Assembly (NCBI GenBank): GCA_024644085.1
Contig: JAHELS010000006.1
Span: forward strand, 1 to 64,000
Direction of reading: 5' to 3'
Source of the DNA: Rhodopirellula sp.
GTDB taxonomy: Bacteria > Planctomycetota > Planctomycetia > Pirellulales > Pirellulaceae
DNA length: 64,000 nt
Shown piece after piece: positions 38,841-52,535 of this stretch. The translations under genes were made by a program, and so were the position numbers. Below the pieces are notes generated by a model. It worked only from the letters and a program-made list of their open reading frames with translations, had not been told where the DNA came from and ran no database searches. The first letter of the stretch is position 1. Every line of letters begins with the position of its first letter.

Positions 38841-39413
38841 TTAACGCCGCACGGCAACCACGAACAACTGGATCCCGTGGACCATCAAGGCGTAACAACC
38901 CAGCACAACATTGAGCAATGCACCTTGAACGAGCGTTGTGAAGGTCGCGGCAAAGTACCCCATCTCGCCCGAAGCCGATCTAAGCTCAAAGCCCGTAATG
39001 CTTTGCGTTAGTCCAACGGACAGGATTCCGCAAATCGTATCGAGGTAGGCGCCGATGGGAAAAAGAATCGAGATGGCAATCCGCGTTCCGTAAGTGATCT
39101 TTAACGTGCGGCGTACCGTCCTTTTCCGGCGGATCGGCAAGGACGCGGTCCGATAGTCCAGCAGGGTGTATCCGATGACGAAAAGCAGGATACCGGTGAG
39201 CATCCCGGCAACCTGTCCACCAGTGATGGCGAGGCCGAACACGAAACTTGGTGCCGCACTGATGCCGCAAACGACGAGCCATCGGAGCGCTGTGCGACGA
39301 AGTGAGGCCGGAATCTCCTCGTCCGCCGCCGGCGCGGCCGGATCGACATAGGGATCATTGTCGACGGCCGTGGTGGGGGCGTAGGGATTGAGGCTTGGTT
39401 CGATTTCAGCCAC
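38841..39413 (-). CDS. Hypothetical membrane protein
   Basis: Several hydrophobic helices; no family recognised. Confidence 0.5.
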   Translation of the reverse strand: MAEIEPSLNPYAPTTAVDNDPYVDPAAPAADEEIPASLRRTALRWLVVCGISAAPSFVFGLAITGGQVAGMLTGILLFVIGYTLLDYRTASLPIRRKRTVRRTLKITYGTRIAISILFPIGAYLDTICGILSVGLTQSITGFELRSASGEMGYFAATFTTLVQGALLNVVLGCYALMVHGIQLFVVAVRR

Positions 39414-39655: not shown

Positions 39656-42643
39656 ATGCACCTCCATCGACTTCACACACGTTTTTCGCCGCGCACCACT
39701 TCAACTTGGCTGCTCCTGGCGGGAATTGCATTGATCTGCCTGACCGACGGCATCCCGGCGATGGCCCAGGGGGGAAACCTCGGTGGATTTGGAACACTCG
39801 GTGGCCAGGAACCGATTGGTCAGTATCCATCGCCGCAGTACTACATGGCGCTTCGGATCTACCGCACCGGCGACATGGATGCGGCGATCGATGCGTTCGA
39901 GATGGCGGTTCGAGTGTCGCGACGCGACGTCCATGGCCGCTGGATCGACGCGATCCCTGCGCTGGCGATGCTGGCCGAATGCCACTGGCAACTGGGTGAT
40001 GTCGTCGGCGCGCACGAACATGTTGATCACGTGTTTCAGATTGCCATTCGCAATCGCGGGTGGCTTAGCCGCGTCGATTGGCAATCTTCGATGCAGCCCG
40101 GCGTACAACTGGCCCAGCAATCCGGTCTCTGGCCGGAGGCAACATCGGTGCGCCGCGTTCCGGTTGCCGGTCGAATCATGTTCACCTCGGGTACACCTCT
40201 GACGGCACAACGTTTGGCGCATGGAGGAACCATCGAGGAACCGAACATTCGCCCGATCGACATCGTGGAGATCATGCGCGGTCTTGCGATCGCCTCACAT
40301 CGGCGACGGGTAATTCTTGGGCCGTTGAGCGAAAACGATGCGTTGGCGACAGCGTTGCTCGATGCGACCAAGTTTCCCGCGGGGTTACAGCTTCCGCTGG
40401 CCCGGTCATTGATCGGTTCGGTGCGCACGACGGGGTACTTTTCGATCCTCGATGACAAGCGCGCTGTCGCCGAGGCATTACAAAATGGACTTATTGGCGG
40501 CGCGGCCCATCCATTGTCGGCGATCGCGATTCTTGCACAAACTTCCGCACTCGCCGGCGAGGAAAAGCCGGAGGCGGTCGTCGGTGTTGCGATGAACCTT
40601 GTCCATATCGCGGCGGCGCTGGAGCAACCCGAATTCCTCGGAGAAGCAATGCAGTTGGCGGCTGGCTGTGCCAGCGAACAACAAGCCGCGACGGTCCGCC
40701 AGGCCGCGGCGACCGTTGCCACGGCGATGTTGAGGAAATCACGTTTGGCGACCTTGCATTGCCTGATCGCCGGGGCTGATGCGGCAATCACTTCGGGAGA
40801 TCTCGATTCGGCAAACACGATGCTCTCTCAGGCCCAATCTTTGTCGGCTCGCCGCGATGTGCTGTTACCGCGACTCGATGCCTACGGTGCTTACGTGGCC
40901 GCTCGCCTAGCCGCGGCGCGCGGCTCTTCGATTGGTATCAACCAGGTCACGCCGCTCGATGAAGCGCTCGCCCAGATGACGACGTTTGCACTGAACCACC
41001 GGGGCCGGAAAAACGCCCTGGTATCGATGCCGCGGGTTTATCAACTGGGACTGATCCGACAAGCGGTCGGCACCTCCGTCGGCGGCAAGTCGAGTGAAAA
41101 ACTGCTGCAGGCCTACGGTGACGACCCGCCGATCGAGGTTTGGCGGCGCGACGCGGTCGACGCATTGGCGTCGGTCATGGTTGACCGCAGCTTGGCGCAC
41201 GCGGCGCGCGTCAACCTGCACGCATCCGCAGGTTACGGAGAAAAGCTGCTCCAGTCGGCCGATACGATGCTGGCTTCGCGATTCAACCAGCGATTACCTC
41301 TCGGTGGCCGCATCGCTCAGGTGCGGGCCATCGCCCGCGGCGACGATCAAGTGCTCGGCAAAGAGATCATCGATTTTCGCAACAAGGCGGGTCGCGGGAT
41401 GAAGGAACTCCGGGCCGCGGCGATGGCGGCGGCCAAACCGGACGCAATGCAACTTGAGAAACTCGAGGCGAAAGCATGCGCGGTCGCTCTGAGTCGACTG
41501 CACCTTCCCCATGTGACACCTCCCCTTCTGGATGAGAAGCTGCCGGTCGCGCGACTACCCAAACGCACTGGCCTGTTGAGTTTTACAGTCGTCGGCAACA
41601 AGCTTTTTGCGACACTGGCGGCCGATGGCAAGGTGGTCATGTGGGCGGTCGGCGGAAGCAATCGATTGCCCGGTGAAATCGGACGACTATTGAAAGGAAT
41701 TGGCGTCGGACGGGCTCGCGGAAACCGACTGCCCGAAGACGAATCTTGGAAGAGCACAGCCGTCACGCTGCGCCGCCATCTAGTTCCGGACGACTCGGTT
41801 ATCACTCCAGAAAAGTTTGATGAGTTGGTGATCGTCCCGGATGGTCCGCTGTGGTACCTGCCTTTCGAGATTCTACCGCTTGGTGATGAGGCGTCGCCGT
41901 TGCTGGCAGACAAGATTTCCGTGCGCTACGCGGCGACGCCCGGACTCGCGTTGAAGCCCGCGGCGATGCCCCCGATCACGCGAGCGGTCGGAGTGACGGC
42001 GGACCTTTTCTTCGCGCCGCGCGACCCGGACCTCAACGGCTCGATCGTTCAATCGATCGTCGACGTGCTGAACGACCCGGTCAAGTTGCCGGGAACCATC
42101 GATACACCAAGCGGGCTGCTCGGCAACCAACTCGGTCATCTCGTGGTCGCGGCCCCTCGGGCGCCGCATCCGAAAAACTTGCTTTTGACCAGCATCACGC
42201 CATACGATCAAACCACTCCGTTCAGCACGCTCGCCGGCTGGATGCGTTTTCCCGCCGAGGTGCCCCGTTCGGTCATCCTGTGCGGGTATCGAACGCCTGT
42301 CGGCGTGGGACAGATGGGAACCGGTGACGAGATCTTCACGACCCTCTGCGCTCTCAATTCCGCCGGCGTCCGGAGCATTCTTCTCAGCCGCTGGGCGGTG
42401 GGTGGTGAGTCCTCGGCGATCCTCCTGCGAGAACTGCTTCAAGAGTTACCGTTCACGGGGATGAACGCGTCTTGGGCACGTGCCCGAGAGGTGCTGCGCA
42501 ACAGCGAACTCGATCCCGCCGGCGAACCACTGTTGATGCAGGCCGAGCATGACCGAGAAGGACTGACCGGAGACCAGCCGTTATTCTGGGGTGGTTACCT
42601 GATCTCGTCGCCTCATCCGCCCACAGCCGGTGCGGCTCAGTAG
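39656..42643 (+). CDS. TPR-like protein with C-terminal CHAT-like domain, catalytic residues apparently absent
   Basis: LWYLPFEILPLGDE, LGHLVVAAP, SVILCGYRTPVG, GVRSILLSRWAVGGESSAILLRELL follow the CHAT layout. Confidence 0.65.
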   Translation: MHLHRLHTRFSPRTTSTWLLLAGIALICLTDGIPAMAQGGNLGGFGTLGGQEPIGQYPSPQYYMALRIYRTGDMDAAIDAFEMAVRVSRRDVHGRWIDAIPALAMLAECHWQLGDVVGAHEHVDHVFQIAIRNRGWLSRVDWQSSMQPGVQLAQQSGLWPEATSVRRVPVAGRIMFTSGTPLTAQRLAHGGTIEEPNIRPIDIVEIMRGLAIASHRRRVILGPLSENDALATALLDATKFPAGLQLPLARSLIGSVRTTGYFSILDDKRAVAEALQNGLIGGAAHPLSAIAILAQTSALAGEEKPEAVVGVAMNLVHIAAALEQPEFLGEAMQLAAGCASEQQAATVRQAAATVATAMLRKSRLATLHCLIAGADAAITSGDLDSANTMLSQAQSLSARRDVLLPRLDAYGAYVAARLAAARGSSIGINQVTPLDEALAQMTTFALNHRGRKNALVSMPRVYQLGLIRQAVGTSVGGKSSEKLLQAYGDDPPIEVWRRDAVDALASVMVDRSLAHAARVNLHASAGYGEKLLQSADTMLASRFNQRLPLGGRIAQVRAIARGDDQVLGKEIIDFRNKAGRGMKELRAAAMAAAKPDAMQLEKLEAKACAVALSRLHLPHVTPPLLDEKLPVARLPKRTGLLSFTVVGNKLFATLAADGKVVMWAVGGSNRLPGEIGRLLKGIGVGRARGNRLPEDESWKSTAVTLRRHLVPDDSVITPEKFDELVIVPDGPLWYLPFEILPLGDEASPLLADKISVRYAATPGLALKPAAMPPITRAVGVTADLFFAPRDPDLNGSIVQSIVDVLNDPVKLPGTIDTPSGLLGNQLGHLVVAAPRAPHPKNLLLTSITPYDQTTPFSTLAGWMRFPAEVPRSVILCGYRTPVGVGQMGTGDEIFTTLCALNSAGVRSILLSRWAVGGESSAILLRELLQELPFTGMNASWARAREVLRNSELDPAGEPLLMQAEHDREGLTGDQPLFWGGYLISSPHPPTAGAAQ

Positions 42644-42667: not shown

Positions 42668-45655
42668 TCAGAATTCCTTCGCTTCGCCGAACAGCACGCC
42701 CGGCACATAGACCGCCAACCCCGAGAGCGCCGCGACCATCCAGGGCTCGAGCAGACTGGCAACGCCTGGAATTCCAAACATCGGGCCAAACAGGATCACG
42801 ATTGTTGCCACCGCCGCAAACGGTGTCATCCGCCAACCGGACACGAAGGCGGACATGACCAACAACAATCCTGCCCATCCGACCGACCAGGGTGACGTGC
42901 CCAGGAGCTGTGTGTCCGATTCGGTTTCGCCAGCCGCGGCAGCAGCACCACGCAGCGCCGTTGAAACTTCACCGAGGTCAGCGCTTTGGATGTTCTTGAA
43001 TGATTCGAACAGCCCACTGCTGTTACCCCATAACGCGAAGATGGCCAACAAAATGCAACCGGCCAACAACCGCGTCTGACCCCCCAGAGCAAATCGGATC
43101 GGTGCAAGTGGATCACGTTTCTTTTTGTACTTGCCGCTTCGCGCGTCGGCCAACATCGCCTTCATTCTCGCCCGCTTTTCTTCGGCGGCCGCTTGCGCAT
43201 CGGCGGTTGAGGTCGACACTTCTCTCGCGTTGTCCATGACGGCGGCGGCCATCTGCCACGCACGGTCTCTCGCCTCATCGGCGCTCAGCCCCTCGCTCTG
43301 CAACCCGTGCTGCTCGATCTTCGCAAGACGTTTGTGATCGCGTGCGTCCCGATTCACCCTGGCTTTGGAATCCAACGCAGCACAGATCTTGTCACGCCAT
43401 GAATTGGCAGACGTCGATGCCGAAAAGGAAGGGTCCCCTTTTAACTTTGTCCGCATCGTGCAAAGGGATGGATAACCAAACAAGTCCTCGAAAAGCGGCT
43501 GCCATCCCTTGCCCCCATACCGCGCCGCAAACGATCGGACACCTTCTTCGTCCGCCCCCTCGATTCGAAGATCTCGAATGAACCGTTCCGCCTCGTCGAG
43601 AATCGAGGCACGGCTGCCTCTCGACGGGGCAATCAGTGCAAAGTGAAACGCGGCGCCGGTGATCGCGCCGAGCAACAATCCGACAAAAAAGCCGGGCCAC
43701 AAACCCGAAATCAGCACCACAAGCAACAGCACGCAAGCCCCAATGATCGCGACCAGATAATCGACCCACGACAGCGAGCCGATCCAACCGCGCAAACTCG
43801 TCACCAACGCACTGCGTCCACCTCGGGCACCGAGAATCAAAGCCGTGCCGACTGTGGCGAGAAACAGGACCGGGCCGAACAACAACCAACCAAAGCCCGC
43901 CACGACGGGCAACAGCACCGTCAATAACCCGCTCACCGCGACCAACGCCGCGAACAACGGCTTGGTCATCCGGATCAGCGGTGCTGCGCTGCGATAGCGA
44001 GAAGCGATCGATTCCCACCTGTCGGCCTGGGCAACCGTCGGAGAAAACTGTCCCTCGTCGCTGTAGCCCAGGAACGATTCGAGGGCAGCGATCATTTCCG
44101 ATAACGACGCGTACCGATCCTCAGGACGCTTTGCCATCGCCCGCTCGACAATGCGCTCGAGCGGTTCGGGCACGCGGGTGCTGATGGAACGCAAACTCGG
44201 CAGCGGCTGCTGGGCGTGCTGTTGCAGCACTTCGGAAACCACAGTACCGTCGAAAGGCGGCCGTCCGACCAGCATGTAGAACAGCGTACAACCCAGTGAA
44301 TAAATGTCGGCGCGATGGTCGACTGCGGCCGCGTCGATTCCCTGCTCGGGCGCCATATAGGCGGGCGTTCCCACTGCGGTTCCCTGCATCGTCACTTGCG
44401 TGCCGCTCTCCAAACCGCTCATCGACGTGATACCGGCATCCGAATCGGTATCTGCCTGGTCGGGAATCTTCACCAGCCCGAGATCCGCGACCTTGATCAC
44501 GCCCTCGTCACTTAGCAACAGATTCGCCGGCTTCACGTCGCGGTGAACCATCCCATTGCGATGGGCGAACTGTAAACCACGAGCCGCCTGCAACGTGTAG
44601 CCCGCCGCCAACTTCGGATCGAGTGCTCCCTTCTCGCGGATCAATTCGTCAAGCGGCCCTCCACGCACCCATTCCATGCTGAAGAAATGCCGGCCCGCAT
44701 CCTCGCCAAAGTCGTAAATCTGTACCACGTTATGATGGGTCAGCTGGGCCGCCGCGTATGCTTCGCGAACAAACCGTGCCAACGACGCTGGGTTGTTCGC
44801 CAATCGATCACGAATTGTCTTTAGCGCCACCAGGCGATCGAGTGAAACCTGTTTGGCTTCGTAAACCGCACCCATCGCGCCGCGTCCGAGCAGCCGCAAT
44901 ACCCGATAGCCGCCAAGCCGCTCGGGCACTTCAGCCACATCGCCGCCGCGCGACGCCGAGACTTGGCGCGATGCCGATCTTCCGCTCGACGCGCCAGCCG
45001 AAACCAACGGCTTGGCTGATCGCCCCGCTTTGCTGGCGACCCTCTTACTCTCCTCCACAACAGTTCCGTCGACCGTCGCATCAACGTTGCCCGCCGTTTC
45101 GTCGGCCGCGCCGACCGTCACGCCCGGATCACCCTGCGAGGCCGGCCGCTGCTGGCGAGAAGCTACCGAAGATGAATTCGCGGCGCCGGCCCCAGTCGAC
45201 GGATCGAGCGTGGCCTGGTCGACGGTCGCCTGGTCGACGGTCGCCTGGTCGACGGTCGCCTGGTCGACGGTCGCCTGGTCGAGCGCAGGCTGTTCAACAG
45301 TCGCCTGATCGAGCGCAGGCTGTTCAACAGTCGCCTGATCGAGCGTGGCCTCCACGCCATCATTCTCGCTGGCTGCGGGTTTCCCAACCGCCGATTCAAC
45401 CGCTGAATCAACCGTTGCCTCGACGGTGCTATTGCTGGGCGCTGCGTCACCCGTTGTCGCCTCGGGATTCGCCCGCTTCTTGTTGGTGCGACTCTTATCC
45501 TGGGACAATCGCCCGACGCCAACTTTGGGTGGGTCATCATCGGTGACTTTGAGGCGAAATGCCTTACCGCAATGTTTGCATTTGGGCCGATAACTCCCCG
45601 GCTTCGGCTGACCGAGTGACAGGACCGATTCGCACTCGGGGCACTTGATTCGCAT
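42668..45655 (-). CDS. Membrane Ser/Thr protein kinase with N-terminal Zn-ribbon and repeat linker
   Basis: CPEC...CKHC; GRGAMGAVYEAK; HRDVKPANLLL; APEQG; C-terminal transmembrane segments. Confidence 0.9.
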   Translation of the reverse strand: MRIKCPECESVLSLGQPKPGSYRPKCKHCGKAFRLKVTDDDPPKVGVGRLSQDKSRTNKKRANPEATTGDAAPSNSTVEATVDSAVESAVGKPAASENDGVEATLDQATVEQPALDQATVEQPALDQATVDQATVDQATVDQATVDQATLDPSTGAGAANSSSVASRQQRPASQGDPGVTVGAADETAGNVDATVDGTVVEESKRVASKAGRSAKPLVSAGASSGRSASRQVSASRGGDVAEVPERLGGYRVLRLLGRGAMGAVYEAKQVSLDRLVALKTIRDRLANNPASLARFVREAYAAAQLTHHNVVQIYDFGEDAGRHFFSMEWVRGGPLDELIREKGALDPKLAAGYTLQAARGLQFAHRNGMVHRDVKPANLLLSDEGVIKVADLGLVKIPDQADTDSDAGITSMSGLESGTQVTMQGTAVGTPAYMAPEQGIDAAAVDHRADIYSLGCTLFYMLVGRPPFDGTVVSEVLQQHAQQPLPSLRSISTRVPEPLERIVERAMAKRPEDRYASLSEMIAALESFLGYSDEGQFSPTVAQADRWESIASRYRSAAPLIRMTKPLFAALVAVSGLLTVLLPVVAGFGWLLFGPVLFLATVGTALILGARGGRSALVTSLRGWIGSLSWVDYLVAIIGACVLLLVVLISGLWPGFFVGLLLGAITGAAFHFALIAPSRGSRASILDEAERFIRDLRIEGADEEGVRSFAARYGGKGWQPLFEDLFGYPSLCTMRTKLKGDPSFSASTSANSWRDKICAALDSKARVNRDARDHKRLAKIEQHGLQSEGLSADEARDRAWQMAAAVMDNAREVSTSTADAQAAAEEKRARMKAMLADARSGKYKKKRDPLAPIRFALGGQTRLLAGCILLAIFALWGNSSGLFESFKNIQSADLGEVSTALRGAAAAAGETESDTQLLGTSPWSVGWAGLLLVMSAFVSGWRMTPFAAVATIVILFGPMFGIPGVASLLEPWMVAALSGLAVYVPGVLFGEAKEF
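45213..45340. repeat. In-frame 15-bp (x5) and 30-bp (x2) tandem repeats in the kinase linker
   Basis: GCCTGGTCGACGGTC repeated from 45213; exact 30-mer GAGCGCAGGCTGTTCAACAGTCGCCTGATC at 45281 and 45311. Confidence 0.95.
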
Positions 45656-45700: not shown

Positions 45701-47017
45701 CTATTGGCCCCTGATCCACGTGGCAAACCGTTCACGCAGCGGTGGCCGCGCGACGTCCTCGACCAACGACGGCAGGGAATCAGCGCAGCGGATCAGCGTT
45801 TGACCGATCAAGCCGCACGCCTCGTCACTGCGATTGGATCCGATCTCGCGCAACCGAGCCAGCAAATCAACCGACCACGACGCGTGCCAATCGACCGACG
45901 CAGCCGCCACCAACTTAATCAAGTCCTGCACATCCATGTTCATTCGGGCCGAAAGCGATGCGATTTGACGCGAGTTGCCGGCGGTCAACCATCGTTCCAA
46001 CGCGATACGGCTCGACGCGCCGTCGATCAAATGAATCTTGCCATCGTGATCGACCATCAGGTTATCGGAATGAATGCCCCCGTGAGTCGCTTGGGCGTGA
46101 TGCGCCGCGGCCACCGCGAACGCGACCCGCGAAAGATCGACGAGTTGAACACGGGGGGCCTGGTCCGCACGGTGCGACTGGAAGGAACGGGCAAACAGCC
46201 ACGGACGCACGACGCCGAGATGCCGGTGCTGGATGGCCGCGACGCTCGGCCGGACCCAACAGGGGTTGCGGACCGACGCGGCGCGCTCGCAAGCATCGAG
46301 CACCTGCTCAATCTCTGCCTCCGAGACTTGCACAGGCAGCTCGGAAATCTTCAAGGCGAGTGGGATGCCGCGGACTGAATCGCGGCCGCGGATCAGCCAT
46401 CGTCCCGGCCCGCTGGCGACGCAGCGATCCCCGATAAACCATTCCGGCACGTCGACCGGGTAGGGTGTCAACGGCGTGACCGGCAACGCTGGCTCGGCAG
46501 CGAAGGGCAATTCATCGATTGAAAAATCTCCAGAGTGTGAATTCACTCTGTCGGTGTCGATCAACATCGTGCCCTCGGTATCACCATCACCATGATCGGG
46601 GACGATGCTGTTGCCGGCACCCGTCGTCGGCGCGGCTTTTTCATCGGCGAAATCGATTTGCACCAGCTCGCGAATCGGGTCGGCCAGGTCGGGAAACCGC
46701 CGCGACAACACTTCCACATCGACTTTAGCCCCCAATTCCACCGAGACGCAAACCTCGGCGTCAATCAGGTCGAGTAGATTTGACTTCGTGCAAAGGGCGG
46801 GATACTCGTCGAGGTAATCTTCGACCTGCACCGGGTGTGACATGCGTCGCCGCTGCATCAAGTCGATGCAGACAATATCGACGAGCTGATTCTCTTCAAG
46901 CGGCCTTCCTCGGAGCAAATCTGCGAGCGGGGACTCCGGATCTCTCCGACGTTCGGCGCGAAGCCACTGAATCAGACTGTCGATTGATGCGGGCCGCGGA
47001 TCGGTTGTCTCGCCCAT
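45701..47017 (-). CDS. Predicted pseudokinase (STK-like domain without catalytic HRD aspartate)
   Basis: Kinase-like fold; catalytic loop HGGIHSDNLMV in place of HRDLKPENI, DGA in place of DFG; N-terminal VEDYLDEYPAL motif seen in planctomycete STKs. Confidence 0.75.
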   Translation of the reverse strand: MGETTDPRPASIDSLIQWLRAERRRDPESPLADLLRGRPLEENQLVDIVCIDLMQRRRMSHPVQVEDYLDEYPALCTKSNLLDLIDAEVCVSVELGAKVDVEVLSRRFPDLADPIRELVQIDFADEKAAPTTGAGNSIVPDHGDGDTEGTMLIDTDRVNSHSGDFSIDELPFAAEPALPVTPLTPYPVDVPEWFIGDRCVASGPGRWLIRGRDSVRGIPLALKISELPVQVSEAEIEQVLDACERAASVRNPCWVRPSVAAIQHRHLGVVRPWLFARSFQSHRADQAPRVQLVDLSRVAFAVAAAHHAQATHGGIHSDNLMVDHDGKIHLIDGASSRIALERWLTAGNSRQIASLSARMNMDVQDLIKLVAAASVDWHASWSVDLLARLREIGSNRSDEACGLIGQTLIRCADSLPSLVEDVARPPLRERFATWIRGQ

Positions 47018-47658
47018 CAGATCTCTTCGTCGTGGAAACCGATGTCAGCGCGTACACGGTCCAGGGCGCGTCGCACACGCATGCGAGCCGTATCGGCCTT
47101 GATGCCCAGTGCTTCACCGATTTCGTTCCAGTCACGGTTCTCGAGCATCATGTCGATCGCGCGGGCATCCTCCTTGGTGACCAGTGATCGAATCCTTGAC
47201 AAGACTTCGCGACGCAACGCGATCTGACTGGGCGTGACCTGTCGATTCGCCATCGTCATTTCGTCGACGGGCGTCCCTTCGTTGCGGCGAAAATCACGGC
47301 ACTGACGCGCCAACGTCCGAAATGTATCGAGGACCTGGTTATCAATTGCCCGCAGCACATAGGCGAGCACATCATCCGGTGTGACGCCCTGCTCGCCGTA
47401 GCGACGAGCCATGTCGGCCATCACGTCATTGCAAATGTCCATCGATTCGGCCTGGCCCATCAATCCGTATTGGCGAAGCCGCGTTCGAGCGCGGCGCCGC
47501 AGTTGGTCGCCAAATCGACGCCAAACAATCTCCAAGGGTTCAGCGGCGACCGATGACGTTGCGGCGTCGGATCGAAATTCGTTTGCTGCTGAAGGGCGAT
47601 CCGAATCATCTGGGATCGAATCATCTGGGATCGATGGGTCGGTCACTGGATGTACCAT
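47017..47658 (-). CDS. ECF-like RNA polymerase sigma factor
   Basis: Region 2-like helices and C-terminal HTH DWNEIGEALGIKADTARMRVRRALDRVR; start set at MVHPVTD; 1-nt overlap (TGATG) with the pseudokinase start. Confidence 0.85.
   Translation of the reverse strand: MVHPVTDPSIPDDSIPDDSDRPSAANEFRSDAATSSVAAEPLEIVWRRFGDQLRRRARTRLRQYGLMGQAESMDICNDVMADMARRYGEQGVTPDDVLAYVLRAIDNQVLDTFRTLARQCRDFRRNEGTPVDEMTMANRQVTPSQIALRREVLSRIRSLVTKEDARAIDMMLENRDWNEIGEALGIKADTARMRVRRALDRVRADIGFHDEEI
47603..47632. repeat. 15-bp in-frame direct repeat (x2) in the sigma factor N-terminus
   Basis: GAATCATCTGGGATC twice, encoding SIPDDSIPDDS. Confidence 0.9.
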
Positions 47659-47880
47659 GCCGCCAGAGCGAGGTGGGGAATGTGCGACGTAACGCTGCCG
47701 GTAACGGCCTCTTTCAAGAGTCACCGTACGGCGGTAATGGCAAAGGCGACATCGCATGCCACAACCGAACAACCGAATCACCGCCGCAGAGAGTCCATGA
47801 TCGACCATGCGGAGTCGATCATGCTTTGAGGGGGGCTCCGGAGTGCCAGTTTACCAGCATTCGTGAGGGCCAGCCGATTT

Positions 47881-50800
47881 TCAGGATTTCTCGCTGACCG
47901 GATCGACTTCGGACACTGAATCCGTCGGCTCTTGCGCTTCGTTTACCTCGTCCGCTTCGTTGTTCGAAGCCAGCCGCTTCTTGGCCTGGGCGAACATGCT
48001 CAAGCCCTCTTTGAGCGAAATCGCCGCTACGATCACAGTCATCGCCACGGCGAGCCAGCGAATGTTGCCGGGGATAAAGAAATAGCAGGCGATCCCGCAC
48101 AGCAAGGCGCCGGCCGCACAGCCGACATTCACCGCGCCGCGGATCTGAGTATCGCGAGTTTGCATGCGAACGCTTCTGCTGATCGCACTGCGTGCCGATT
48201 CGTTCGCCAGTTTTCGCATGGCCGACAAATCGCTGTTCTTTTCCGGTGCCTGCGAACGAGGCACCAATGGGGCCTCAGGATCGACCGCTTCTTCCTCGGT
48301 CTCTTCGTAAGGTTCGGCGTGCACTTCCGTCTCAACCGAGGTCAAGACGCTCGGCTCGGACGTCGTTGAAATCGACACCGACTCGGTGGGATCACCGTCC
48401 TCGGACGACTCGCCCTGACAGCGTTGCAGCAATCGATTCATGTAGGCTTCGATCGAATCATCATTCGGAGCCGGTTCCGAAACGGGTGGATCGACCTGGG
48501 CCGGCTCCTGATGAGCTTCCGGTTGATACGATGCCGTCGAATCCGAATCGACAGATTCATCGCCTGCGGTTTCATATCCGCCCGCAACCGAATCGTAGTC
48601 ACCGGATTCGTCAGCTGAATCGTAGTCACCAGATTCGTAGTCAGCTGAATCGTATTCGCCCGATTCGTATGCGCCCGCCTCGTAATCGCCTGGCGCGTAC
48701 TGACCGGCCTCCTGTTCAGCCGACCCATGTTCGGCCGATGCGAACGGACCTGATTCGTTTTCACTCGACTCGTATCCGCCCACACCATCGCCGTCCGCCG
48801 CGTAGCTGCCCTCTGACTCCGTGTTCGTCTCGTCGGTCGTCTCGTACGGGCTTGATTCACGAACCTCTTCGACACGATAGCCGTCCGGGTTGTTCGACCA
48901 CTGGCTGGTGTACGATTCTTCGGAATGTTCCTGGTCCCACGATACCGGCTCTTGTTCGTCCAGACCGGGCGATTGTGGAGCGTCGTCCATGACGAAGGTG
49001 CCATCGGGCGGAGTATCGATCGCAGCTTCGTCGGCGGATTCGGTCTCCAGGTCTTGAATCAACATGCTGGCCAACGAACCTTCGACGACCGAGTCATCGC
49101 CTGGGGATGCGTCACCGAGCGGTTCACCTGCGTCGTCGCCGGGTTCCTCGCCGAAGTGATTCTCCGGCGGCGCGGCCGCGTCACTCAAGTCATGCGCCGA
49201 CTCGTCTCCGGCGAAGCTACTTTCGTCCTGCAGATCTCCTTCCGATGATGGCAGCCCGGCGTCATGTTGCGGCAGAGCTTCGTCGGTGTCTCGGTACGCC
49301 GGATCGGTGCTCTTGAACGTATCCTCTGCATGACTCCCGCCATCATTTTCGAACCCGCCCGCGCCGGGCTGAAATGCGCCGTCACCAAATTCTTCTGTCG
49401 TCTCGTAGGTCGATTCCGGAGTGTCCCACCCCTGCGATTCACTCTCAACCGATTCCCCGGTATCCGACCAGGGCGAGTCGGACTCGGCGGCTGAGGCGTC
49501 ACCCCAAACGTCGTCCGTTTCCCCTTTGACGTCCGAGTCACCGGCCCACGCCGACTCTGGCGAAGACTCGCTCGCAGGCTCGCTTGCATCCTCGGTACTG
49601 TGATCATTCCAGAATCCCGTGCCGGCCGGAGTATCATCTGTGGCCGGTGGGTTTTCCGCTGCGCTAGCGTCAGCGTCCCAGGGAGAGATCCCATCGGACT
49701 CCGCTGAGGGGTCGCCCAACTCGGGAGCGTCGTTTTCGTCATGAGACTCGACCTGCGCGCTGTCCCACGCGGCGGTTTGCTCGACGTTTGCGGCGGGATC
49801 GGATCGGCCCTCTCGCGGGCTGTCGGTCCCCCAGTCGCCGTCGGCCGATTGCTCCTGGTCGACGACATGATCATTCGTGGACTCGTCCCCTGGCCACGGC
49901 GAGTCGTCGTCGGCCGCAGTCGCCGCTGAGCTGTCACCGCAGTCCGGTTCTCCAGCGGCAACGCTGGACAATTCCTCGGACTCCGTTGCTTCGGCGCCGC
50001 TGCACTCTTCGGCGCCGCTGGACTCTTCGGCGCCGCTGTACGCTTCGGTATCGGATTGATCCGGTGGGCCGGCCACCGACGGCGTACCGGCGGCGAGCGC
50101 GAGCGAATCGCCAGGTGATTCATGTTGGTCGAGATTTGCCAGCGCATCTTCGTAATCGCGCTTCATCTGGTCCAACTTTACGTTGGCCCCGTCGAGTTCG
50201 CTTCTGAGCGAGTCGAACGCTTCGGTTGTGGGCCTGGAAGTCAATTCCTGTTGTGCTTCGTCTCTTTCGTGCTGCATCGTGTCGAGCCGCGCCGAAAGAT
50301 CCGCATTGGCTTCGCGAAGGTCGGCCAATTCGCTGTTGGCATTGGCCAACTCTGTCGACAACTGCTCCATCGCGGTTCGCAGTTCATCAGCTTCGGCGGT
50401 CCAACTTTCGCGATCCTGTTCACCCCGTTGGCTGCTCTGTTGAACCAACGATTCGAGTTGCCGTACTGATTCACATGCTTCTTCGTAGTCATGTCGGAGT
50501 CGGGACGATTCTTCGCCGGCCTCTGAAACGCTTTGATGCAGCTCTTCGACTTGCTGCCGCAACTCCTGGGCGACTCGCTGGCTTTCTTCGAGAGCGGCCT
50601 GCTGTTGCTGCTCGTCGACACCCTGGCCCGATTTCAACGCTTCGATCTGGGCCGACATTTCTTCGACGCGTGAGAGCGCTTCGGTTCGTCTCGCTTCGCT
50701 TTCGGCCTGGGCGTCGATCGCCTCGTCCCGCGATTTTTCCAACTCGAGTCGCAAACGCTCATGTTCTTCGCGTTGTTGTTGTTCGCGCTGTTCAATGTCT

Positions 50801-51897
50801 TCCTGTTGACTCGAGAGCACCTCGATCTGCTTGTTCAAGCTCTCGAACTGTTCTCGCATCCGGCTGACCGCCTCGGTGGCCGAGTCGGCTTGCTGCTGGG
50901 ATTGGTGCAGCTGCCTGGTGGCTTCTTCAAGCCGCCGTCGGTATTCGAATTCCTCGTTTCGGAATTCATTTTCCCTCTGGCGGAACTGTTCCTGGCGGCT
51001 CTGCGTTTCTTCCCGAAGGCGAATCAATTCCTCTTGCCGCTGTGCAAATTCGTCGTACAACTGAAACGCTGCCGCTTCCTGGCTCTGCAACCTCGACTCA
51101 CGGCGATACAAATTCTCGGCACGCGACCAAAGTTCCGTTTCTCGGGATCGGAGATCACTTTCCCGTTCATCACAACGGTCCTCGCGGCGATCGCATTCCG
51201 ATTGACGCTCGCGCCATTGATCGATCTCCCGACGCAGCCGCTCACGCCAGATCACGTCTTCGCTCGACGGCAATTCGCTCCGCTCGCCACCGAGAGACTT
51301 TCTCCCACCCATAGCGGCGCGGCCGAACCGACCGGATGGCTCCGTGACCGGAGAATCAAAGACCGAACGCGGCGCGGTCTCGAACCGTGGTCCCAATGGT
51401 GATGCGGATGCTTTTGTCGATGACAACAACTCGAATTGGTACGCGCCAAGTCGAAGAACGTCACCCGACTCTAACGTCGCCTCCGTCATGCGTGTGCCAT
51501 TGACCTGGATCGGCACCGAATAGGCACGAACGAGGATACGTGAGGCGTCGCGAATCAGGACGGCGTGCATCGGTCGCAGCGCATGATCGCTTAAGCGAAT
51601 CGAACAGCCCTCGGCACTGCCGAACGTGTACCGGTTGCCCGTCAAACGCAAACGCCGAATCGGGGCGCCGGGGCGAATCACGCGAAACTCGATCGCGTCG
51701 GTCTGCGGACCCTCCGGACCGGATCCCCCGAACCCGGTTGGGGCGACTGGCTTCACGTCGGATGACGCATCTTGCTCGGGAATCGAGCTTTCCACGCCGC
51801 CATTTGAATCGGCAAAGATCGGGGTGGCGAAATGTGGATCGACCGCAGATTCCGGGCCCGCGTCCAATGGCGATCCATTCGTGTGATCTGTACTCAC
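47881..51897 (-). CDS. Large FHA-domain protein with coiled coil, acidic low-complexity region and C-terminal transmembrane helices
   Basis: FHA-like YTFGSAEGCSIRLSDHALRPMHAVLI; long E/Q/R coiled coil; ESGEYDSADYESGDYDSAD acidic repeats; GTG start at 51897 with AGGGA upstream, in frame with the longer track ORF. Confidence 0.8.
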   Translation of the reverse strand: MSTDHTNGSPLDAGPESAVDPHFATPIFADSNGGVESSIPEQDASSDVKPVAPTGFGGSGPEGPQTDAIEFRVIRPGAPIRRLRLTGNRYTFGSAEGCSIRLSDHALRPMHAVLIRDASRILVRAYSVPIQVNGTRMTEATLESGDVLRLGAYQFELLSSTKASASPLGPRFETAPRSVFDSPVTEPSGRFGRAAMGGRKSLGGERSELPSSEDVIWRERLRREIDQWRERQSECDRREDRCDERESDLRSRETELWSRAENLYRRESRLQSQEAAAFQLYDEFAQRQEELIRLREETQSRQEQFRQRENEFRNEEFEYRRRLEEATRQLHQSQQQADSATEAVSRMREQFESLNKQIEVLSSQQEDIEQREQQQREEHERLRLELEKSRDEAIDAQAESEARRTEALSRVEEMSAQIEALKSGQGVDEQQQQAALEESQRVAQELRQQVEELHQSVSEAGEESSRLRHDYEEACESVRQLESLVQQSSQRGEQDRESWTAEADELRTAMEQLSTELANANSELADLREANADLSARLDTMQHERDEAQQELTSRPTTEAFDSLRSELDGANVKLDQMKRDYEDALANLDQHESPGDSLALAAGTPSVAGPPDQSDTEAYSGAEESSGAEECSGAEATESEELSSVAAGEPDCGDSSAATAADDDSPWPGDESTNDHVVDQEQSADGDWGTDSPREGRSDPAANVEQTAAWDSAQVESHDENDAPELGDPSAESDGISPWDADASAAENPPATDDTPAGTGFWNDHSTEDASEPASESSPESAWAGDSDVKGETDDVWGDASAAESDSPWSDTGESVESESQGWDTPESTYETTEEFGDGAFQPGAGGFENDGGSHAEDTFKSTDPAYRDTDEALPQHDAGLPSSEGDLQDESSFAGDESAHDLSDAAAPPENHFGEEPGDDAGEPLGDASPGDDSVVEGSLASMLIQDLETESADEAAIDTPPDGTFVMDDAPQSPGLDEQEPVSWDQEHSEESYTSQWSNNPDGYRVEEVRESSPYETTDETNTESEGSYAADGDGVGGYESSENESGPFASAEHGSAEQEAGQYAPGDYEAGAYESGEYDSADYESGDYDSADESGDYDSVAGGYETAGDESVDSDSTASYQPEAHQEPAQVDPPVSEPAPNDDSIEAYMNRLLQRCQGESSEDGDPTESVSISTTSEPSVLTSVETEVHAEPYEETEEEAVDPEAPLVPRSQAPEKNSDLSAMRKLANESARSAISRSVRMQTRDTQIRGAVNVGCAAGALLCGIACYFFIPGNIRWLAVAMTVIVAAISLKEGLSMFAQAKKRLASNNEADEVNEAQEPTDSVSEVDPVSEKS
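49990..50043. repeat. 18-bp in-frame tandem repeat (x3) in the FHA-protein gene
   Basis: TTCGGCGCCGCTGNACTC three times. Confidence 0.9.
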
Positions 51898-51910
51898 CGT
51901 CTGTCCCTTC

Positions 51911-51970
51911 CCTGTTTGACAACGCTTGGGCCTGTTTGACGACGCTTGGCCCTGTTCAACAACGCTTGGC
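51911..51970. repeat. 20-bp tandem repeat (x3) just upstream of the FHA-protein start
   Basis: CCTGTTTGACAACGCTTGGG / CCTGTTTGACGACGCTTGGC / CCTGTTCAACAACGCTTGGC. Confidence 0.95.
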
Positions 51971-52535
51971 AAGCGCTCTTGTTCGATCCGGTCGGCCCGA
52001 CGAAATCCGCCCGGCGCGCGCACCCCCCGGATAAGCGCACCTCGGCCCTTTCTCTTTTTCGGACGTCGCGTCGCATCCGGTTAGAGAATCTGGGCCGACT
52101 GATCACCCTTTGACTCGATCGGCGCCGGAATCGCACCGATCGACCCCAAGAAACCAGCTCTTTTGGGGGGACCGAAACCCGTTCGAACCGAAATGTCCTG
52201 TTGGAATCGATCAACAAGTCGGGTTGTTCTGTGGGCTGCAAATCCTTTGCAACCGGCACTTTAGACAGAAATTCATCGGAAAACGGTGGGAATCCGCGAT
52301 TGAAAAAGACGATTTTGACGCCCTTCTCTCTATCATTGGGCCGGATCAAGTCAAACGTGGTGAAAACCACCACCCAACGCGATGCGTACGAAGGAAACCA
52401 CAGGTAGTTTGTGATCCTCGAATTGTTGGTCGGGTGGAATCGGGCGTTCGTCCACGGCTGGATTTCGGTCCTCAACCCCTACCCCTATCAACAAACGCTG
52501 ATCGCGGCGACCTTCTTTTCCTATGAGGTGATGCG

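Follow-up and report, generated by a model that had tools for sequence, protein, structure and literature searches.

In Planctomycetes, many ECF sigma factors are encoded beside Ser/Thr kinases, and to our knowledge the control of these sigma factors by kinases is largely untested. The window (i.e., the whole 64-kb stretch of DNA that was analysed) raises the question of what a kinase-like protein does in such a pair when the residue for phosphotransfer is missing from it. Most same-genus relatives of the window genome carry the annotation Rubripirellula or Rhodopirellula. The pair and its parts are organised as follows:

47017-47658, minus strand: ECF sigma factor, with its ATG at 47658 and a longer open frame to 47808.
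47015-47019, minus strand: TGATG, overlap of the sigma stop and the pseudokinase start with one base in common.
45701-47017, minus strand: pseudokinase gene (438 aa); the N-terminal domain of its product is helical and is followed by a disordered linker (around residues 124-182) and a kinase-like domain.
46646-46990, minus strand: N-terminal domain (residues 10-124), all-helical, common to HRD-intact ECF-linked planctomycete kinases.
45773-46450, minus strand: kinase-like domain (residues 190-415), from the AlphaFold2 model and Foldseek.
46349-46351, minus strand: K223, the Lys at the VAIK position, kept in 29/31 orthologues.
46061-46084, minus strand: HGGIHSDN where HRDLKPEN is expected; His and Asn are kept, the catalytic Asp is changed to G314.
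46022-46024, minus strand: D332, the DFG Asp, retained in 30/31 orthologues.

In an alignment with active kinases, H312-G313-G314 stand at HRD and N319 at the loop Asn, and the motif after the loop reads LIDGASS. A sequence-only reading of this DNA had described the loop (HGGIHSDNLMV) as having lost its catalytic Asp to Gly and had taken the Lys of ALKIS for a possible VAIK Lys; both assignments hold in the alignment, where G314 occupies the Asp position and A-L-K the VAIK position. The same reading had given DGA in place of DFG: the motif is indeed present with Phe and Gly changed, but the Asp itself is retained. In the AlphaFold2 model (12 orthologues; mean pLDDT 76), the helical N-terminal domain is joined by a disordered linker to a kinase-like domain with a bilobal kinase fold, for which the top PDB match in Foldseek is Stk1 of S. 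aureus (E 2.8e-8). The protein is thus a pseudokinase in the operational sense, i.e., a kinase fold without at least one of the Lys, the catalytic Asp and the DFG Asp. Pfam and NCBIfam searches returned no significant name for it, and it is not among the 59 matches of the Pfam kinase profile PF00069 in its own genome, with no score above the cut-off. For the suggested role as a sensor there is no support, with no TM segment found and no sensor domain recognised by Pfam or NCBIfam. Assignment to a defence system was likewise rejected, as PADLOC gave just a weak partial match to a defence protein (16 bits).

Orthologues of the pseudokinase are found in Rubripirellula, in the Stieleria/Roseiconus clade, in K23_9 and in two further genera; a sixth genus (G083) possesses a more degenerate relative. 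Among the 31 aligned orthologues, the catalytic position (314) is occupied by Ala in 13, Ser in 10, Gly in 5, and Asn, Thr and Asp in one each, such that the catalytic Asp is absent in 30/31. A comparison with ECF-linked planctomycete kinases had been proposed as a check; among the further loci whose kinases carry the same N-terminal domain, HRD is intact in 19 of 20 (see below). Besides K223 and D332, the His and the loop Asn are kept (each 30/31), and the retained ATP-site and Mg residues fall within the 19 of 226 kinase-domain columns in which identity reaches at least 93%; in conservation, position 314 comes 115th of the 226. The Arg of HRD is Gly in all 31 orthologues, the Lys of HRDxK is replaced in 27/31, Phe and Gly of DFG are mostly changed, and in this alignment the Gly-rich loop is not conserved (columns 201-205 variable). 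In the genome of the window itself, H[RS]D is kept in 27/27 readable kinase loops. Since the Asp is lost across orthologues while Lys, His, Asn and the DFG Asp persist, the state of G314 is more than chance. The sole orthologue with an Asp at the catalytic position (G029) has lost the Lys, the loop Asn and the DFG Asp. In the relative from G083 (L148 2828-4087, minus strand), all kinase motifs are lost, and its gene is still linked to the sigma gene and to the orthologue of the active kinase described below. Nucleotide binding is therefore not essential everywhere, because G029 and G083 have both lost the Lys, Asn and DFG Asp. The dN/dS of the pseudokinase lies between 0.16 and 0.27 (five pairs, with dS near-saturated, exceeding around 1).

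Concerning its origin, the N-terminal domain is the informative part. Modelled separately (50 sequences), it reaches a pLDDT of 92; it has no Pfam match, and neither profile nor fold comparison gave a significant match in the PDB; it appears to be an undescribed helical domain of ECF-linked planctomycete kinases. It heads kinases of other Pirellulaceae and of other families, and it adjoins an ECF sigma gene in 17/20 further loci (8/10 in an earlier set). The HRD loop is intact in 19 of these 20 loci; the exception is L148, the degenerate pseudokinase, whose contig also carries the orthologue of the active kinase. Loci with the domain include L149-L157, L160-L165 and L167. That it is an exclusive sigma marker is not supported, as kinases of the same genome without it often have a sigma gene nearby (12/30 loci). 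Compared by hhalign with eight HRD-intact kinases that carry the N-terminal domain, the pseudokinase matches over both domains (Prob 99.4, E 5e-21). It thus shares with the ECF-linked Ser/Thr kinase family both the overlap with an ECF gene (30/32 loci, see below) and common ancestry (the same hhalign E 5e-21), and on this profile evidence its descent from ECF-linked kinases with the same N-terminal domain is indicated. In the simplest history, an ECF-linked kinase would have lost catalysis once and passed this state on within its lineage.

The pseudokinase-linked sigma factors fall into a single clade (support 100/99) with a long stem. The overlap of sigma stop and pseudokinase start, noticed previously, is confirmed on the minus strand (TGATG, 47019-47015), and a stop/start overlap is kept in 30/32 sigma loci. 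The region-2.2 motif of the sigma factor is ESMD, with two acidic residues as in other planctomycete ECFs with acidic residues, and with this motif a phospho-activation like that of EcfP is not indicated. Upstream of the gene, the following element is situated:

47745-47771, minus strand: promoter-like element TGTTCGGTT-N13-TCGCC, around 90-110 bp before the sigma ATG, conserved.

Its conserved form is TGTTCGnTT-N13-WCGCC. The position of this element upstream of 47658 supports the ATG at 47658 as the sigma start. A bipartite GTTCG-N16/17-CGCC precedes the sigma gene in 15/30 loci, to which two one-base variants are added, in four genera. The element is absent from the 11 sigma loci of the Stieleria clade in which the active kinase is unlinked, and it was not found before the unlinked kinase genes of that clade. 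The frequency of the loose pattern in the 64-kb window is around that expected by chance, such that the support for the element rests on position and conservation. It may possibly constitute an autoregulatory promoter. No regulon is claimed, its genome-wide occurrences being not clearly above the reversed-pattern control. During the promoter search, eight near-identical copies of TGTTCGTTTAACCGCTTGGGCATCGCC, many of them around 110 bp apart and with the look of a repeat array, were met in G003 (C1:1475202-1476593).

Two further neighbours of the pair have to be considered:

42668-45655, minus strand: active PknB-like Ser/Thr kinase (HRDVKPAN and DLG) with an N-terminal zinc-ribbon-like motif and around 7 hydrophobic segments.
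47881-52023, minus strand: FHA-domain coiled-coil protein that ends in two hydrophobic segments at its C-terminus, the upstream neighbour kept in Rubripirellula and K23_9.

The kinase lies directly downstream of the pseudokinase, and its intact motifs predict it to be active. Its orthologue is present in 34/34 genomes with the sigma-pseudokinase pair, including genomes of the Stieleria clade where it is unlinked, and is missing in 6/6 Rubripirellula genomes without the pair. The Fisher value calculated takes no account of relatedness and is not read as a probability. In most genomes of the Stieleria clade, the pair stands without an adjoining active kinase gene. Around 39 genomes without the pair carry the orthologue as well, and the active kinase must therefore have other work. 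The pseudokinase domain has been deleted in two species (G013 and G016), where the N-terminal domain forms an in-frame fusion with the active kinase and the sigma gene still adjoins:

L045 4860-7739, minus strand: fusion of N-terminal domain and active kinase.
L046 9795-12620, plus strand: fusion of N-terminal domain and active kinase.

Because the sigma factors of G013 and G016 nest inside the pseudokinase-linked sigma clade, the fusion is derived, and it places the active kinase in the same pathway as the N-terminal domain and the sigma factor. The active kinase of the window contains tandem repeats (DQATVDQATV / VEQPALDQAT; 45210-45345, minus strand), located between the zinc-ribbon-like motif at its start and its kinase domain. 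The FHA protein is tied only loosely to the pair; its place as an obligate part is weakened by its presence in G015 and G021, which are without the pair, and it was not found in G029. At 39656-42643 (plus strand), a large convergent protein, CHAT-like by eye, is situated, whose synteny with SecA and with the gene at 38841 is conserved across many loci of Rubripirellula.

Taken together, the best reading of these sequences is that the pseudokinase is phosphotransfer-dead, probably binds nucleotide, and acts as a partner of the sigma factor that works with a second, active kinase. The earlier proposal of a non-catalytic sigma partner is supported by the loss of the Asp in 30/31 orthologues, the kinase fold, the single sigma clade, the kept overlap and the co-occurrence; it had, on the other hand, overlooked the retained ATP and Mg residues and the active kinase downstream. 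The sequences show one sigma clade, a kept overlap, loss of the Asp with the ATP and Mg residues retained, common ancestry with HRD-intact ECF-linked kinases and the obligate presence of a second, active membrane kinase. The N-terminal domain would bind the sigma factor, or else a complex that contains it, and the pseudokinase domain would bind nucleotide and act as a conformational, nucleotide-responsive scaffold. The active kinase might receive a signal at the membrane and phosphorylate the pseudokinase or the sigma factor, by which the latter would be released or licensed and could switch on its own operon via the TGTTCG/WCGCC element; translational coupling would keep partner and sigma factor in balance. 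The catalytic job would thus have moved from the sigma-bound kinase to the second kinase. A role as anti- or co-sigma factor is plausible, and the sequence does not tell inhibiting from assisting. Counted against this reading are the losses in G029 and G083, the two species with the fusion, which do without the pseudokinase domain, the active kinase in genomes without the pair, the missing element at the 11 Stieleria-clade loci and the high dS of the dN/dS pairs. As a whole, the reading that a conserved, phosphotransfer-dead ECF-linked kinase is kept as the dedicated partner of the sigma factor, with catalysis passed to a second kinase, is considered rather probable.

A plain anti-sigma factor, i.e., a pseudokinase that simply sequesters the sigma factor beside an unrelated active kinase, would fit the overlapping order of sigma factor and then partner, the soluble partner without a TM segment, and the fact that in most Stieleria-clade genomes no kinase gene adjoins the pair. 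The orthologue of the active kinase, however, accompanies the pair in all 34 genomes and is missing in the six relatives without it, the partner's N-terminal domain has been fused to this kinase in two species, and the conserved Lys, Asn and Asp would be unneeded by a purely sequestering protein; this explanation is unlikely, though it keeps a real chance. These retained residues, together with the Arg of HRD being invariably Gly, are also what a repurposed catalyst would display, one that catalyses another ATP-dependent reaction (AMPylation or glutamylation, cf. SelO and SidJ) with either the sigma factor or the active kinase as its target, and the loop HG[AGS][IVL]xxxN resembles HGVMNTDN of SelO. 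Yet the hhalign match to SelO has a Prob of 0.3 and covers the 17-column motif alone, whereas the similarity to Hanks kinases is strong; moreover, the Gly-rich loop is not conserved and the needed residues are lost in G029 and G083, which makes such a catalyst distinctly improbable. That the pseudokinase domain employs its Lys, Asn and Asp for a non-kinase ATP reaction, e.g., AMPylation, that targets either the sigma factor or the second kinase is, as a claim of its own, quite improbable; if true, an AMPylation-type reaction on the sigma factor would represent a novel mode of sigma-factor modification.

The retained ATP-site residues would equally suit a kinase that remains active by means of a different base, as is the case for some kinases whose motifs are altered, but any of A, S, G, N or T is tolerated at the catalytic position, and the changes in the HRDxK Lys, in Phe and Gly of DFG and in the Gly-rich loop argue against it as well, such that it is very unlikely. 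A decaying gene without function is hardly credible: the identity among orthologues is low (35-42% vs 62-76% for the sigma factors of the genus) and degeneration has gone further in G083, but the frame is intact in a single clade across six genera, with invariant residues, the kept overlap and a dN/dS of 0.16-0.27.

The favoured reading, a dead sigma partner that works with an active kinase, matters because the phosphotransfer residue alone has been removed while partner, overlap and ATP site are kept, which separates the binding role of ECF-linked kinases from their catalytic role. The natural fusions and the unlinked arrangements offer ready-made comparisons, and the common N-terminal domain is predicted to be the sigma-facing part across the whole class of ECF-linked kinases. 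A three-part switch of sigma factor, dead kinase and second active kinase does not seem to have been described before: the text of the 2025 review of bacterial pseudokinases (PMC12599244) does not contain "sigma" or "Planctomycet-", and among the open-licence papers returned by searches for planctomycete or sigma-linked pseudokinases, none describes such a switch in its title or abstract. A survey of planctomycete kinases used PF00069 and the KDD residues as its screen (PMC11032199); the pseudokinase is below the PF00069 cut-off and would not be picked up by such a screen.

Among known systems, phospho-activation in ECF-kinase pairs is shown for ECF43 (EcfP-PknT, EcfK-PknS) and predicted for planctomycete ECF59, ECF61, ECF62 and ECF217 (PMC8999054). 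As in these, an ECF gene adjoins the gene of a Hanks-type kinase fold, and the N-terminal domain is common with HRD-intact ECF-linked kinases, whereas here the sigma-linked kinase is dead as judged by its motifs and a separate kinase is active; furthermore, region 2.2 is STTA in EcfP vs ESMD in the window. With the pseudokinase and AMPylase SelO, which has the loop motif HGVMNTDN (PMC12599244), the protein shares the HG-x-x-x-x-x-N loop, the Lys and the DFG Asp, but membership in that family was rejected (no Pfam SelO match; Prob 0.3 over 17 columns against PF02696), and given this lack of profile similarity the likeness is ascribed to convergence. The catalogued families ActPs1-3, GLW, CP1, DYD and DLHK likewise show a conserved loss of catalytic motifs; of these, ActPs2, ActPs3, GLW, CP1 and DLHK differ from the pseudokinase of the window in motif or domain patterns (PMC12599244). 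The closest working analogy is MviN-PknB-FhaA of mycobacteria, where a pseudokinase, a PknB-like membrane kinase and an FHA protein act in one pathway (PMC12599244, PMC11898655, PMC6180346); in the window, the genes for pseudokinase, active kinase and FHA protein are neighbours. In the MviN domain (ActPs3), the Lys, HRD and DFG motifs are all degraded and ATP is not bound, and the pseudokinase of the window, in which Lys and DFG Asp are kept, is not of this type (cf. Table 1 of PMC12599244). The output differs, too: it is a flippase in the case of MviN and a sigma factor in the window, where Lys, Asn and Asp have been retained.
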